From Multifurca ochricompacta (Eukaryota > Basidiomycota > Agaricomycetes > Russulales > Russulaceae): 64,000 nt of DNA. How positions within the stretch are numbered: the stretch's first letter is position 1; every line of letters begins with the position of its first letter. Below, one piece after another: positions 5,931 to 57,636 of the stretch. Under the pieces are notes generated by a model, which saw only the letters and a list, made by a program, of their open reading frames with translations, did not search any database and was not told where the DNA came from. Made by a program: the position numbers and the translations under genes. The stretch covers positions 1 through 64,000 of the forward strand of contig WTXG01000044.1 of NCBI GenBank assembly GCA_022496185.1, in the 5' to 3' direction.

Positions 5931-6436
5931 TGTTGAACACAGAAGATGTTCGGTGATGCTTCAGGCATCAGGTGATCAGATTAGCTGCTCTGTAGATTAG
6001 ATTAGATACCGGAGTTTCGGACTATTTACATTATCATTATTACTTTCTTTCTCACATTCCGCAGTAGCTGACTGATGCACTATGTAACATGTGATTTCTG
6101 TACTGGCCAATGGCCTTTCTCCCTCATGTTTATTGTTTGGACTTTGTCCGGCACTTGTGGACTTATTCCCAGTGCACAGACCACCCCTTGATTAGTATAT
6201 AAGGGTGTCTGTTTCGTCCTCTACACTTCAGAGTTTTCTTCACCTCTGAAGTGTAAGTCCCTTCTACATTACTTCCTACTTATACCTTTGACTAACCGCT
6301 CTCTGTAGCTAACTTGTCGTTCTAGGTCAGTAGTATAGTAACAGAGTTTTCTTCACCTCTGAAGTCTAACTTGTCGTTCTAGTTTAACCAACTAACAACC
6401 CACAGTCAGTATGCTGCGCATCATGCCTGTTTCACA
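5931..6436 (+). mobile_element. Solo copia-type LTR inserted in the ankyrin array
   Basis: 506 bp, TGTTGAACAC to GTTTCACA, with perfect CCCTC target duplications. A TATA box lies near 6197. The leader begins at 6230, followed by a well-formed 56-nt intron at 6253-6308 (GTAAGT, GACTAAC branch site, TAG). The exon-exon form without that intron recurs at 6343-6382. Exon sequences differ from those of the LTR at 28157 but the two halves inside this LTR agree exactly. Confidence 0.92.
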
Positions 6437-6955: not shown

Positions 6956-7451
6956 TGTCAAACAATCATGCTGCTGGTTATACTGACTGTGGTTAGTAGC
7001 AGGTTAGGCTAGAGAGACAAGTTATACTTCAGAGGTAGAAGAACTCTCTATTGCTATACTACACACCTAGAGAGACAAGTTATCTACAGGAGACGGTTAG
7101 TCAAAGGTAAGGTAGTAAGTATCAAAGGGAACTTACACTTCAGAGGTAGAAGAACTCTGAAGTGAAAGAGACGAAACAGACACCCTTATATACCCCAAGG
7201 GATGGTCTGTGCGCACTGGGAATAAGTCCACAAGTGCCAGACAATAAACAGAGAGGGATAAAGGCCATTGGCCAAAGAGATATCACATGCTTACTGTGCA
7301 TTACTAAGTCCATCACTAATCAGCTGAGTAAGGTGAGAAGAAATGTAATAAAGATAACATAAAAAGTCCGATACTCCGAAATCTAATCTAATCTACAGCT
7401 GAAGCGAACCTTAGATGCCTGAAGCATCTCCAGACACATCCTGTGTCAACA
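6956..7451 (-). repeat. 3' LTR of copia-1
   Basis: 496 bp, TGTCAAAC to GTGTCAACA on the plus strand, so minus-oriented like the pol frames to its right. A purine-rich TGGAGGGA tract abuts it at about 7452-7459. The leader exon is at 7137-7158, with an intron at 7084-7136, exon 2 at 7067-7083, and a processed copy at 7009-7047. The target copy on the gene side is CGCCA (6951-6955); its partner is missing. Confidence 0.9.
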
Positions 7452-27538: not shown

Positions 27539-28032
27539 TGTTGACACGGGACGTGTCTGGAGATGCTTCAGGCATCTGAGGATCGCTTTAGCTGTAGATA
27601 AGATTAGATTAAATTCCGGAGTTTTGGACTTTTTACAATATCTTTATTACATTTCTTTCTCACCTTACTCAGCTGATTAGTGATGTCCTTAGTAATGCGC
27701 AATAAGCACATGATATCTCTTTGGCCAATGGCCTTTATCCCTCTTTGTTTATTGTCCAGCACTTGTGGACTTAATCCCAGTGTGCACAGACCATTTCCCC
27801 TGGCCCCCATGGGTATATAAGGGTGTCTGTTTCATCTCTTTCACTTCAGAGTTCTTCTACCTCTGAAGTGTAAGTCTTTCCTTTACTATACTGCTCTTAT
27901 ACCTTTAACTAACCGTCTTATGTAGACTATTTGTTTTCTAGGTCAGTAGTATAGTTAATACAGAGTTCTTCTACCTCTGAAGTACTATTTGTTTTCTAGC
28001 CTCAGTATAACCAGCAGCATGATTGTTTGACA
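27539..28032 (+). repeat. copia-type LTR at a rearrangement junction
   Basis: 494 bp, TGTTGACACG to GTTTGACA. The left neighbour is copia-1 gag (minus strand), the right neighbour an NLR scrap, and the flanking 5-mers (TTCTC, AGATC) do not match. A single insertion therefore cannot explain it; a recombined LTR that removed intervening DNA is likely. Leader exons are at 27848-27869 and 27926-27941; processed copy 27962-27999. Confidence 0.8.
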
Positions 28033-28156: not shown

Positions 28157-28669
28157 TGTTGACACAGGACGTGTCTGGAGATGCTTCAGGCATCTGAGGA
28201 TCGCTTCAGCTGTAGATTAGATTAGATTAGATTCCGGAGTATCGGACTTTTTATGTTATCTTTATTACACTTCTTTCTCTCCTTACTCAGCTGATTAGTG
28301 ATAGACTTAGTAATGCGCAGTAAGCATGTGATATCTCTTTGGCCAATGGCCTTTATCCCTCTCTGTTTATTGTCTGGCACTTGTGGACTTACTCCCAGTG
28401 CGCACAGACCATTTCCCCTGGCCCCTATGGGTATATAAGGGTGTCTGTTTCGTCTCTTTCACTTCAGAGTTCTTCTACCTCTGAAGTGTAAGTTCCCTTT
28501 TACTATACTGTTCTTTTACCTTTAACTAACCATCTTATGTAGACTATCTGTTTTATAGGTCAGTAGTATAGTTAATATAGAGTTCTTCTACCTCTGAAGT
28601 ACTATCTGTTTTATAGCCTAACATGCTACTAACCACAGTCAGTATAACCAGCAGCATGATTGTTTGACA
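28157..28669 (+). repeat. copia-2 5' LTR with intron-bearing leader and processed duplicate
   Basis: TATA 28432-28438. Predicted start at 28466, 34 nt downstream. Exon 1 is 28466-28487, intron 28488-28542 (55 nt; GTAAGT, CTAAC, TAG), exon 2 28543-28558, followed by GTCAGT. The exon 1-exon 2 fusion recurs at 28579-28616, then U5. About five differences from the 3' LTR by eye, four at CpG. Confidence 0.92.
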
Positions 28670-28683
28670 GGTTATGGGCCCTG
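28670..28683 (+). promoter_or_regulatory. copia-2 primer-binding site matching an internal part of initiator tRNA-Met
   Basis: GGTTATGGGCCCTG directly follows the LTR. Its complement contains GGGCCCATAACC, the anticodon stem-loop of eukaryotic initiator tRNA-Met. Priming by a half tRNA of this kind is known for Drosophila copia and yeast Ty5. The same sequence adjoins the copia-3 LTR (49386-49399). Confidence 0.85.
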
Positions 28684-30351: not shown

Positions 30352-32964
30352 ATGCTGTCTTTGATTGTCTTCCCTCCCTCCTCCAAAATGGAACGCCTCG
30401 ATGGCTCCAACTGGCAGGTTTGGTCTGCCAATTTCAACGCCCTTTTGAGGATGAATGGCCTCAGGAGGCACATTCTCACGCCTTACCCTGATATGCCACT
30501 CCTCCCAGAGGACAAGGAGGAAAAAGAGAAAATGCAGAAGGAAGTCATTGATCCCATCCTTAGGGAATGGATGGGAGAAGAGGAAATGTTGATTGGGCTC
30601 CTCTTCCTCAATGTAACCCAGGAAGTCTACTCTCAGGTAGCTTCCAATGCCAACTATCCTTCTCTTAGTGAGAAGTATAGCAAGTTAGAGCGGCTTTATG
30701 GCTCTGTAGGTAGCATGGCCACATATAATTTGTGGCTTGCCCTGGTGTCCTTCCATCTTGATGAAGGACAGTCATTTAGAACCCAATTACAAAAGGTTCT
30801 AGATGCCAGGAGTACCCTTAGTGAGAACAGGATGGAGGTCAATGACCTCCAGATGAGCTTTATATTATTAAAAGCTCTCCCAGACTCCTACAGTGCCATT
30901 GCTGGCTCAATACTGGCCTCTGGCGACCCAGAGCGACTCTCTCCTCAGGACCTTGTGCAGAGGTTCCTAAATGAAGAAAGTTGCCTGGCTGGTCCCTCGG
31001 GAAGTGGTAGTGCAGTCCTATCTAAGGCTGCACCTGTCAAAACTAAAAAACCTATAAATTTATCACCACTTCCCGCTGCTGCCCCTGGTTCACAAGGGGT
31101 GGTCTGCTTCTATTGCCAAAAGCCTGGACACAAGTCCAACGCTTGCACAAAGAAGAAGAAGGACCTGGAGAATGCCAAGAAGGGCAAGGCTGGGAACAAG
31201 AAGAGGGCTGAGGCCCAACATGTACATACTATAGCCACTGTAGTTAACAGTAGTGGCAAAATAGAGGAGGTGCAAGAAGCACCTCGAATTCGCCTTTATG
31301 TTCACACCCATAATCTGGATATCAACTCAGATTATTGGATGCTTGATAGTGGTGCAATGGCCCATTTCAGTCCAAACCTTGAAGACTTTGATACTTATAA
31401 AGTCGACACAACCCATGAAGTATCACTAGGTGACAACTCCATAGTCAAAACAAGTGGAGTTGGCACTGTGATCATCAGAACTGATCAAGGTTTCGACTTG
31501 GAATTGAGCAATGTGCTCCACATGCCTGGAGGACATAAAATACTCTCCACCAGTGCCCTAGTAGAAAAAGGGGCAACTGTGTTCTTTGATAATAAGAAGG
31601 CAACAATAAAACATGGTGATAATATTATAGCAGAAGCATGGAAGTTTGGCAAATTGTATTGGGTACTAGGCAAACACGTCCTAAATACTATCCATACAAC
31701 TGCATCTGCCTCACTAGAAATCTGGCATCAAAGGATGGGCCATATGTCAAAAGAGGCCCTGAAGAGATATGCTCCTGAGGCGGTTAAAGGCCTCAGAATT
31801 AATAATAGCCAAGTGGAAGACAAGCCATGTTATGGCTGTGAAATGGGCAAGTCCCATTGTCTTCCATTTCCCCCATCTTCAAAGTGCGCATCAGCCCCCC
31901 TTGAGATCCTTCATAGTGATCTCGTAGGCCCCTTGCAGTGCAGTTCAATACAAGGGAATCTATACTTTGCCACTTTCTTGGACAACTTTAGCAGATACAC
32001 TCTAATCGTTCCAATGAAGTCAAAAGATCTGTTTACACCAGTTTTTAATAAACTGAAGACACTACTTGAAAATAAATTTAATAATAAAATCAAGTGTCTT
32101 CACACAGATCGTGGTGGCGAGTATGTGAACAAGGCGCTGAAAGCAACACTTGAAGATTATGGCATAGAGCATAAACTTACGATGTCATATAGTCCACAAC
32201 AGAATGGAAGAACTGAGAGATTTAATAGAACCATTATGGAAAAAGGCACTAGCATGCTGCACAATGCTGGCCTATCTCTTGGTTTTTGGGAGTGTGCTGT
32301 TGAAACAGCATGTCATATATATAACAGAACTCCCATCCGTTCAAACAAGTGGAAGACTCCGCTTGAGCTTCTGGTTGGGAACAAACCAGATGTCTCATAT
32401 TTTAAGGTCTTTGGATGCAAAGCCTATTATCATGTTCCAGAGGGCAAGCAGCATAAATTAGATCCCAAAGCAAGGGAGGCTGTCTTTGTCGGATATGAGC
32501 CCACATCTAAGGGCTATACACTTTGGGATAGTCATATCCGGTCTCTTGTTTTTTCACAAGATGTTACATTTGATGAGAGATCCTTCCCATCCCACTCTGT
32601 AAAGGACAACAGAGCAGATAAATCTATAGAGCAACCTATTGAAGGTGGCTCATTTACTATACCAGGTGGCCCAGTCCAGCCACCACCAGCAACTGCTACA
32701 CATGTTCCTGAGGCTCCTCAAGATGAGGAAGACCTAGAAGAGGAACAGGAGGACATCACACCTCCACAATTACCACCTCAGCCTACCACACCCACACGTA
32801 ATGTAGACACCACACACCCTCAGACTATATATCAGACTCCTCCATCGCAAATCATGGAACCATCCTCCCCTCCCAAAAGAACCAAGGCAATCAGAAAATC
32901 GCAAAGGATTGCAGATAGAATTCCTCAACCTAATTTTCAGAGGACAAGTCCATGCTCTGAATGA
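30352..32964 (+). CDS. copia-2 gag-protease-integrase (pol truncated by stops)
   Basis: 870 codons in one frame. Gag (residues 1-250, MERLDGSNWQVWSANFNALL), knuckle CFYCQKPGHKSNAC near 251, protease WMLDSGAMAHF near 330, and integrase with WHQRMGHM, HSDLVGPL, TDRGGEYV and SYSPQQNGRTERFNR. It ends at two consecutive TGA codons (32962-32967) where copia-1 has CGA CGA, so CpG decay truncates what was a single gag-pol frame. Confidence 0.9.
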   Translation: MLSLIVFPPSSKMERLDGSNWQVWSANFNALLRMNGLRRHILTPYPDMPLLPEDKEEKEKMQKEVIDPILREWMGEEEMLIGLLFLNVTQEVYSQVASNANYPSLSEKYSKLERLYGSVGSMATYNLWLALVSFHLDEGQSFRTQLQKVLDARSTLSENRMEVNDLQMSFILLKALPDSYSAIAGSILASGDPERLSPQDLVQRFLNEESCLAGPSGSGSAVLSKAAPVKTKKPINLSPLPAAAPGSQGVVCFYCQKPGHKSNACTKKKKDLENAKKGKAGNKKRAEAQHVHTIATVVNSSGKIEEVQEAPRIRLYVHTHNLDINSDYWMLDSGAMAHFSPNLEDFDTYKVDTTHEVSLGDNSIVKTSGVGTVIIRTDQGFDLELSNVLHMPGGHKILSTSALVEKGATVFFDNKKATIKHGDNIIAEAWKFGKLYWVLGKHVLNTIHTTASASLEIWHQRMGHMSKEALKRYAPEAVKGLRINNSQVEDKPCYGCEMGKSHCLPFPPSSKCASAPLEILHSDLVGPLQCSSIQGNLYFATFLDNFSRYTLIVPMKSKDLFTPVFNKLKTLLENKFNNKIKCLHTDRGGEYVNKALKATLEDYGIEHKLTMSYSPQQNGRTERFNRTIMEKGTSMLHNAGLSLGFWECAVETACHIYNRTPIRSNKWKTPLELLVGNKPDVSYFKVFGCKAYYHVPEGKQHKLDPKAREAVFVGYEPTSKGYTLWDSHIRSLVFSQDVTFDERSFPSHSVKDNRADKSIEQPIEGGSFTIPGGPVQPPPATATHVPEAPQDEEDLEEEQEDITPPQLPPQPTTPTRNVDTTHPQTIYQTPPSQIMEPSSPPKRTKAIRKSQRIADRIPQPNFQRTSPCSE

Positions 32965-33790
32965 TGAGATAGGGCAATCCAAGAAGATTTAGACTTGGAT
33001 ACTGCACATCCCAATTGGAATCGTCATCTGAATCCTCGCTTCTACAATGAGGATAATGCAGAGTTTGTGCAGGGTTCTTCCAGACTTGGTCAGATGGATC
33101 TACTCAATGCTGCAGGATCACCTTATAGGGATCCTCTTACATTTAAAGAAGCAATGGAGTCTGATAATGCCAGTGATTGGCTTGAGGCATGTCAATATGA
33201 AATTGATGCCTTAGAAAAACTTAAAGTGTGGCGCCTTGAAGACCTTCCTGAAGGTAGAAAGGCTGTAAAGTCTAAATGGGTTTTTAAATTGAAAGCAGAT
33301 GGATGCTTTCGTGCTAGGCTTGTAGCAAAAGGGTTCACCCAAATAGAGGGGGTGGACTTCAACAAAACCTTCTCCCCAGTCGCCAGATTCGAGTCTCTAA
33401 GACTGCTGTTAGCGTTGGCCGCACTTGAGGATTGGGAAATCCACCAAATGGATGTCAAATCGGCATTCCTTCATGGCGATCTGGATGAGGAGATTTACAT
33501 GGAGCAACCTGTTGGTTTGTTGTTGCTGGACAAGAGTCCAAAGTTTGTAGGCTACAGAAGGCTCTGTATGGCCTCAAACAAGCTTCCCAAGCATGGAACT
33601 TACAATTCCATGCAGTTCTCAATGAACTGAGCTTCACTCGGACATACTCTGATGCAGGAGTATATGTGTATCATCACCAAGAGGGGGATGGTTCACTTTT
33701 TGTCATTTTATATGTTGATGACATCACTATACTTGGGTCCTCCACTAAGAAGATACAATGGCTGAAGGATTCTCTATCTAGCTGATATGA
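32965..33790 (+). pseudogene. copia-2 pol: N-terminal RT, frameshifted
   Basis: Continues the 870-codon frame after the double stop: [51 protein letters not shown]. After 33505 a one-base loss relative to copia-1 shifts the frame, and the rest of RT (YVDDITI at about 33712-33732) is read in another frame. Confidence 0.88.
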
Positions 33791-49399: not shown

Positions 49400-49900
49400 T
49401 GTGAAACAGGCATGATGCGCAGCATACTGACTGTGTGAGTTAGTGTGTAAGGCTAGAAAAGACAAGTTACTTCAGAGGTAGAAGAAACTCTATTACACTA
49501 TACTACACACATAGAAAAGACAAGTTCTATATACAGAGTTAGTCTAAAGGTAGTGAAGATAGTAGAGAGGATGACTTACACTTCAGAGGTAGAAGAAACT
49601 CTGAAGTGTAAGAGACGAAACAGACACCCTTATATACATTCCAAGGGATGGTCTGTGCACTGGGAATAAGTCCACAAGTGCCGGACAAAGTCCAAACAAT
49701 AAACATGAGGGAGAAAGGCCATTGGCCACTACAGAAATCACATGTTACATGGTGTATCAGTCAGCTACTGCGGAATGTGGGAAAGAAAGTAATAATGATA
49801 ATGTAAAAGTCCGAAACTCCGGTATCTAATCTAATCTACAAAGTAGCTAATCTAATCACCTGATGCCTGAAGCATCACCAAACATCTTCTGTGTTCAACA
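49400..49900 (-). repeat. copia-3 5' LTR
   Basis: 501 bp, TGTGAAACAGG to GTGTTCAACA on plus; closest to the solo LTR at 5931. Exon 1 49580-49602, intron 49527-49579, exon 2 49511-49526, processed copy 49453-49491 with one substitution in exon 2. It truncates the hAT transposase pseudogene to its right. Confidence 0.9.
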
Positions 49901-57123: not shown

Positions 57124-57636
57124 TGTCAAACAATCATGCTGCTGGTTATACTGACTGTGGTTAGTAGCATGTTAGGCTATAAAACAGATAGTACTTCAGA
57201 GGTAGAAGAACTCTATATTAACTATACTACTGACCTATAAAACAGATAGTCTACATAAGACGGTTAGTTAAAGGTAAAAGAACAGTATAGTAAAAGGGAA
57301 CTTACACTTCAGAGGTAGAAGAACTCTGAAGTGAAAGAGACGAAACAGACACCCTTATATACCCATAGGGGCCAGGGGAAATGGTCTGTGCGCACTGGGA
57401 GTAAGTCCACAAGTGCCGGACAATAAACAGAGAGGGATAAAGGCCATTAGCCAAAGAGATATCACATGCTTACTGCGCATTACTAAGTCTATCACTAATC
57501 AGCTGAGTAAGGAGAGAAAGAAGTGTAATAAAGATAACATAAAAAGTCCGATACTCCGGAATCTAATCTAATCTAATCTACAGCTGAAGCGATCCTCAGA
57601 TGCCTGAAGCATCTCCAGACATGTCCCGTGTCAACA
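57124..57636 (-). repeat. copia-2 3' LTR (inverted relative to its 5' part)
   Basis: 513 bp, same length as 28157-28669. Flank GCGGG (57119-57123) is the complement of CCCGC at the 5' LTR. Confidence 0.93.

Follow-up and report, generated by a model that had tools for sequence, protein, structure and literature searches.

A processed copy (P) of two short exons (E1 and E2), carried inside the long terminal repeats (LTRs) of a copia-type retrotransposon in Multifurca ochricompacta, is very probably renewed from the spliced exons of the LTR in which it resides. In these LTRs, E1, intron 1, E2 and a spacer are followed by P, in which E1 and E2 are directly fused. The window analyzed here comprises 64,000 nucleotides of contig WTXG01000044.1, and the reference LTR at 28157-28669 is described in Table 1. 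The initial annotation had assigned E1, a 55-nt GT-AG intron, E2 and a fused copy to this LTR, and its coordinates are exact in the sequence, with 28579-28600 identical to E1 and 28601-28616 identical to E2 (both 100% identity).

Table 1. Features of the reference LTR, of the other split-and-fused cores in the window, of the associated coding regions and of the asymmetric LTR pairs. E3, segment between P and U5; a slash within a motif marks a predicted boundary.
Feature	Position	Strand	Remarks
5' LTR, copia-type element	28157..28669	+	513 bp, TGTTGACA...TTTGACA; CCCGC immediately before
TATA box TATATAA	28432..28438	+	Sequence
Exon 1 (E1), 22 nt	28466..28487	+	Predicted RNA start TTC/AGAG; left edge of its copy in P
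Intron 1, 55 nt	28488..28542	+	GTAAGT...CTAAC...TAG
Exon 2 (E2), 16 nt, pyrimidine-rich, TAG at end	28543..28558	+	Sequence and comparison with P
Spacer, 20 nt, beginning with predicted donor 2 GTCAGT	28559..28578	+	Last base before P variable
Processed copy P, E1 fused to E2, 38 nt	28579..28616	+	Predicted intron 2 acceptor and predicted strong-stop cDNA landing site
E3, hypervariable, CCTAAC..CTAAC..ACA ahead of GTCAGT	28617..28637	+	Second possible acceptor ACAG ends at 28638
Primer binding site GGTTATGGGCCCTG	28670..28683	+	Adjoins LTR end
3' LTR, apparently same insertion	57124..57636	-	Own self-consistent E1/E2/P; same CCCGC after; opposite orientation
E1-intron-E2-spacer-P, adjoining LTR 27539-28032	27848..27999	+	E3 almost lost
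E1-intron-E2-spacer-P, another subfamily	6230..6382	+	Detector
E1-intron-E2-spacer-P, another subfamily	7009..7158	-	Detector
E1-intron-E2-spacer-P, LTR 49400	49454..49602	-	E2 last base differs from P
gag/integrase ORF, copia-type	30352-32964	+	Retrotran_gag_2, gag_pre-integrs, rve
RT fragment	32995-33630	+	RVT_2
Asymmetric LTR pairs L033/L035, L109/L110, L060/L124	C3 14.6/20.6 kb, C3 90.6/96.6 kb, C7 20.5/26.5 kb		

The LTRs at 28157-28669 (+) and 57636-57124 (-) differ in 5 of 513 alignment columns and look like the two ends of one insertion, in opposite orientation and 29 kb apart. This arrangement would point to an inversion, or else to a join made in assembly; either way, one of the breakpoints falls within the element. 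An inverted repeat, CACTTCAGAG...CTCTGAAGTG, spans 28457-28492 and covers the predicted RNA start and donor 1; it recurs in many copies.

A mechanical detector whose sole criterion was a repeat interrupted by GT...AG and present again in fused form downstream returned six cores in the window, three per strand, with five different E1/E2 pairs. A close variant of the detector likewise returned six across both strands of the window, and no core came from 20 window-length sequences simulated with a first-order Markov model, each searched on one strand. All five LTRs singled out by the initial annotation (5931, 6956, 27539, 28157 and 49400) were among those detected, and the LTR at 57636-57124(-) was added as a sixth. 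In the 49400 LTR, the single mismatch is a T at the final position of exon 2, where P has G. As the pair 49400(-)/101767(+) has no common target duplication, it cannot settle this mismatch.

Across the genome (53.8 Mb, 605 contigs), a pattern composed of the end of intron 1, E2, donor 2 and the spacer yielded 1,109 matches, at least one of which was counted twice, and its reversed control yielded none. For close reading, 176 distinct anchors were taken, with identical cores kept once, and 167 were parsed; these loci were chosen by similarity to the window LTRs or by contig order, not at random from the 1,109, and related copies among them are not independent. Regions retrieved afterwards lie outside the 176. 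The nine unparsed anchors comprised five without the expected intron 1 end, E2 or donor 2, three without U5 after P and one without P, and one further anchor lay too close to the end of its locus for parsing.

P was identical to the fused E1 and E2 of its own LTR in 146 of the 167 parsed distinct cores, which span 88 exon pairs, upholding the earlier claim that the processed copy matches its own exons; 76 of the 88 exon pairs included one or more self-consistent cores. When homopolymers were compressed, 150 of 167 cores matched over 57 distinct pairs, whereas 5000 shuffles averaged 8.0 matches and never exceeded 22. An earlier parse had given 132 matching cores of 154 (shuffle mean 3.6, maximum 11, 2000 shuffles). 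The distance between E2 and its counterpart in P (P2) inside one LTR averaged 0.138 edits, whereas the E2 segments of near-identical LTRs differed from one another by 0.85 edits (54 pairs, not independent, with 0-1 edits in 40 nt of U3 and intron 1) and those in wider similarity bins by 1.38 to 4.35 edits. Because E2 and P2 are closer within an LTR than are the E2 segments of the most similar LTRs, P appears to have been recopied and not merely inherited. The initial annotation had proposed checking whether exon variants co-vary with P in this LTR family, and these distances answer in its favor, as mismatch at the level expected from drift was not seen.

Two further comparisons bear on the same point. 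Among 75 close pairs (no more than 2 edits) whose E2 segments differ even after compression, 56 had two self-consistent LTRs and the other 19 had one. In addition, P matched the LTR's own exons in all eight LTRs whose U5 type does not belong to their intron family, L118 and L177 among these eight probably representing a single insertion; under plain inheritance, every such U5 exchange would need its break between P and U5. Ten LTRs with a minority U5 had been listed, and L001 and L125 were removed as deletions near E3/U5. We consider renewal from spliced exons to be clearly the best reading of these data; the transfer step and the second intron discussed below are inferred.

In 83 close pairs, edits per 100 nt amounted to 6.6 in E2, 14.4 in E3, 1.6 in E1, 2.9 in the spacer, 4.0 in U5 and 1.2-1.6 in the intron and U3, the last two rates being biased low by the choice of pairs on those segments. 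E2 and E3 are thus hypervariable through small insertions, deletions and substitutions, and both lie just upstream of a GTCAGT-like word. This hypervariability remains unexplained, as do the three asymmetric LTR pairs described next.

Two LTRs were treated as a pair when they shared contig and strand, had similar introns and lay 5-14 kb from each other; the window pair was admitted as an exception. Of 28 pairs listed, 23 were parsed, and five had a missing member, most likely since identical cores were kept once. Target duplications were found in four pairs (CCCGC in the window, GGCAT and CAAAT on C3, CAATT on C7), the other pairs being presumed; a solo LTR, L037, is flanked by a GAGCC duplication. 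Both LTRs were self-consistent in 16 of the 23 pairs and at least one in 22. Six mismatched LTRs have a self-consistent partner (L092/L174, L098/L204, L154/L175, L156/L169, L183/L082 and L081/L069), so that in these the mismatch most likely arose after insertion. The C12 pair L075/L080 shows the same E2/P2 mismatch in both LTRs, and this mismatch was probably born with the insertion. L062 combines an E2 of its own family with a P2 equal to the E2 of another family (AACTTTCTTTGTCTAG), as a transfer between two RNAs would give. Of the mismatches in 21 of 167 cores, not all are explained.

Three of the 23 pairs, each a single insertion with a target duplication, consist of LTRs that are unlike in E2 and, correspondingly, in P2, an outcome not expected from ordinary reverse transcription. 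Two of these pairs differ there by a single-base deletion, for which a one-base assembly or sequencing error repeated in both copies is possible. The asymmetry could also have arisen, by analogy, through a second-strand switch between two genome copies or through conversion from another element. In HIV-1, asymmetric LTRs are proposed to arise when plus-strand strong-stop DNA switches to the other genome copy; that case, in the sections of the source cited here, concerns deletions and no introns, and is relevant to the three asymmetric pairs only (PMC9278108). In situ rewriting was dropped as an explanation, E and P having diverged in other pairs.

The boundaries of E1, E2 and P were then compared with predicted RNA ends and splice sites. 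The base before E1 was C in all 154 cores of the earlier parse, and intron 1, 50-57 nt long, ended in TAG in all 154, though the parser accepted only introns with a GTAAGT-like beginning, a branch-like word and AG. E2 ended in TAG in 149 of these cores, CAG in three and TAT in two, and P ended in TAG in 164 of 167 and CAG in three (YAG in 167/167). The spacer sequence was GTCAGTAG in 90 of 154 cores, GTGTGTAG in 59, GTATGTAG in three and GTTAGTAG in two, and donor 2 was GTNNGTAG in 154/154, the parser having sought that word with no more than one substitution. Since its right edge falls exactly at the boundary between E2 and donor 2, P looks like a splice product. A pattern for E1 joined to E2 ahead of donor 2, which would capture either a product lacking intron 1 only or a tandem P, had no exact matches genome-wide, nor did its reversed control. 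This suggests either that reverse transcriptase copies a leader already free of the two introns or that the spacer is always lost in some other step.

P begins at the A of AGAG; the preceding base was T in 126 of 167 cores, C in 27, G in seven and A in seven, and the next base out was A in 160. Positions 3 to 5 before P vary too, between spacer classes, and spacer length is constant within classes in which the last base changes. The base before P was identical in both LTRs for 22 of 23 pairs, and for six of seven pairs in which it was not T. In L224, P is preceded by TTC, the U3 sequence, as an upstream RNA start would leave. The variable base fits a record of the RNA 5' end, 1-3 bases upstream in some copies, or an added base. 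As spacer length is kept while its last base changes, the cDNA would seem to have paired with a P already present and not to have been added behind an RNA end.

The branch words are less favorable to an acceptor at the end of P. CTRAY occurs in the predicted intron 2 (55-61 nt) of 58 of 167 cores, compared with CTAAC in intron 1 of 162 and CTRAY in E3 of 163, which makes ACAG after E3 the better-looking acceptor; the weak branch words are the main sequence argument against an acceptor at the end of P. ACAG/TCAG at the end of E3 was nevertheless dropped as the main intron 2 acceptor, since E3 would then be lost and there were just two matches lacking E3. We regard removal of intron 2 by splicing, with its predicted acceptor at the end of P, as likely.

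These observations can be combined in a cycle. Transcription would start at the A of TTC/AGAG (28466), and the spliceosome would remove intron 1 together with intron 2, from the GTCAGT donor to the TAG ending P, so that the RNA would begin E1-E2-E3-U5 followed by the primer binding site. Minus-strand strong-stop cDNA would be copied from this spliced RNA end. The 3' LTR part of the RNA would remain unspliced (U3-E1-intron 1-E2-spacer-P...), and the end of the cDNA would anneal to P through the 38 nt of identity. Copying would then continue into the spacer, E2, intron 1, E1 and U3, and the daughter would keep the intron-bearing exons and gain a fresh P. P would thus act as a landing pad that lets an intron-containing leader survive reverse transcription. 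The RNA start, both introns and the RNA 3' end are predictions from sequence. We favor the cycle as a whole, with modest confidence, and somewhat more firmly hold that the cDNA probably lands on P by homology instead of jumping end to end. The cycle requires the introns to be spliced in the 5' LTR yet kept in the 3' LTR of the same RNA, a requirement that the model leaves unexplained. Relative to the cycle sketched in the initial annotation, renewal in joined form stands, with the left edge of P at the predicted RNA start and no matches lacking intron 1 only; the transfer step is refined here, as constant spacer length fits a landing by homology better.

That earlier version placed the end of the genomic RNA within the spacer, upstream of P, and had the spliced strong-stop cDNA joined to this RNA end to end, with no homology. 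It would account for the same renewal, and one or two additional bases do stand ahead of P in a few spacers (...TATA, ...TACA, ...TATG and, in L187, ...TATCC). However, spacer length does not otherwise change within classes when the last base does, no A-runs were seen at the junction among the spacers tabulated, and the 22 nt of E1 would offer the cDNA an obvious upstream annealing site that leads to intron-less LTRs, yet such forms number 39 matches against 1,109. We therefore consider end-to-end joining unlikely. A second mechanism, in which intron 1 alone is spliced and reverse transcriptase jumps out of P and onto the matching E1-E2 of the RNA end, bypassing the spacer, gains from the 38-nt identity, which would favor such a jump, and from the 109 of 167 cores whose predicted intron 2 lacks the CTRAY branch word. 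The jump would not be obligate, though, and read-through should leave the tandem P whose exact pattern is missing from the genome; moreover, E2 varies overall yet retains its YAG end, and donor 2 is retained too. We judge this mechanism decidedly improbable.

The remaining alternatives do without renewal through spliced RNA. P may have been inserted once as spliced cDNA and then inherited, with selection for strand-transfer identity removing mismatched copies; identity would indeed matter for landing, and E1 varies little. The insertions, deletions and substitutions that separate the E2 segments of near-identical LTRs are, however, followed by both P2 segments in 56 of the 75 pairs, and inheritance would need two matching mutations per lineage, which makes it very improbable. 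DNA-level gene conversion within the LTR after insertion could keep E and P alike and would suit the three insertions with asymmetric but self-consistent LTRs, but its tracts would be 22 and 16 nt long and flank an intron, L183 changed differently in E2 and P2 at the same CpG, and L092, L098, L154 and L156 each changed in one of the two copies only; its probability appears slighter still. Least credible is chance or an assembly artefact in which E2 and P2 owe their likeness to systematic run-length errors. Some copies (e.g. L081) do carry several one-base deletions relative to the partner LTR, yet the agreement survives homopolymer compression in 150 cores, and the layout is absent from the 20 random sequences.

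Other LTR forms were found. A genome pattern for LTRs with P only gave 39 matches, at least one of them false, and no matches in its control. Among the 22 that were inspected, 20 had U3 with TATA directly before E1E2, one (C375) was in fact a normal LTR with TTC before P and was set aside, and one was incomplete at the region edge. The processed-only LTRs on C457, C523 and C5 are each accompanied, at a distance of about 6 kb, by a normal LTR belonging to their family, with which they probably form one insertion. Processed-only LTRs also occur in pairs on the same strand about 13 kb apart (L189/L190 on C446 and L197/L198 on C46), and LTR-LTR spacings of 13-14 kb recur among normal LTRs as well. 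These LTRs were rejected as fossils of doubly spliced RNA, as they are not specific to it, a deletion between E1 and its copy in P giving the same product.

A pattern that keeps intron 1 and joins E2 to E3 had seven matches, of which four were true (L150, L192, L193 and L194), and its reversed control also had seven. This form can equally reflect splicing of intron 2 alone or a deletion between the E2/P2 repeats. Since short-repeat deletion could explain both the processed-only and the intron-2-less forms, no weight is placed on either. LTRs without E3 were represented by two matches (control 0), L209 (C390:72414) and window positions 27976-28012. In L209, P is followed by TCAGTAT, a junction that coincides exactly with the possible second acceptor ACAG/TCAG; a deletion through AG microhomology would look identical.

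The ORFs between 30352 and 33630 likely belong to the same element as LTR 28157-28669, by position and family; by eye, a gag closely similar to that of the window follows the primer binding site of L003, an LTR of this family. The element resembles Ty1/copia in having gag and integrase before RVT_2, 5-bp target duplications, TG...CA LTR ends and a primer binding site directly after the LTR. This site is a putative half-tRNA(iMet) primer site, GGTTATGGGCCC presumably resembling the primer binding site of Drosophila copia. The three ORFs scanned held copia-type domains only, and retroviral gag-pol-env and tas genes were absent from them. A protein search returned 1,946 relatives, and the RT fragment had no relative in the viral collection. 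The split-repeat layout was absent from 15 short exact matches found elsewhere, and two bacterial-bin contigs encode distant RTs and lack the split-and-fused layout.

Standard copia LTRs consist, to our knowledge, of U3, R and U5 alone and lack both introns and internal processed repeats. A splice donor inside the HTLV-1 LTR is reportedly named in PMC11599126. In foamy viruses, the partner acceptors of the LTR donor lie outside the LTR. These viruses, which are retroviruses, whereas the present element is a copia, carry a 5' splice site in R, upstream of the poly(A) signal and in both LTRs, at which U1 suppresses poly(A) addition in the 5' LTR; they thereby handle a related problem of 5' and 3' LTRs through U1 and RNA structure (PMC3694450). 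In the sections of that source cited here, no intron wholly inside the LTR, second LTR exon or processed copy is described (PMC3694450). Donor-like words are kept in the present LTR, for which R and the poly(A) site are putative. The plant LTR elements Ogre and EVADE have functional introns that serve subgenomic RNAs, but the cited portion of that account does not place these introns in the LTR and describes no cDNA renewal of an LTR segment (PMC12786077). PMC5542766 proved to be a false lead, "LTR1" being a vector name in the part of it that was cited.

Among the papers listed from one open-access library, no title or opening of an abstract describes a split-and-fused LTR layout, with most subscription papers outside this scope. 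The statement in the initial annotation that no described element behaves in this way is consistent with that literature, and absence from print as a whole would go beyond it.

Reverse transcription normally removes introns from the spliced RNA that is copied, and introns in R or U5 should therefore vanish within one cycle. LTR introns are nevertheless kept in 1,109 pattern matches of this genome. On balance, we think that the element keeps its LTR introns because the spliced leader is rewritten in each generation as a 38-bp pad while its source is inherited unspliced, the pad also supplying the acceptor of intron 2. If this loop is true, it would be a natural solution to intron retention in a retroelement; the RNA start sites and splice junctions of each generation would be recorded in the genome, together with a marker, readable from DNA alone, that identifies the RNA behind each strand transfer. 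A segment of the genome would then be inherited via spliced RNA and its adjoining intron-bearing source inherited unspliced, closing a self-renewing loop.
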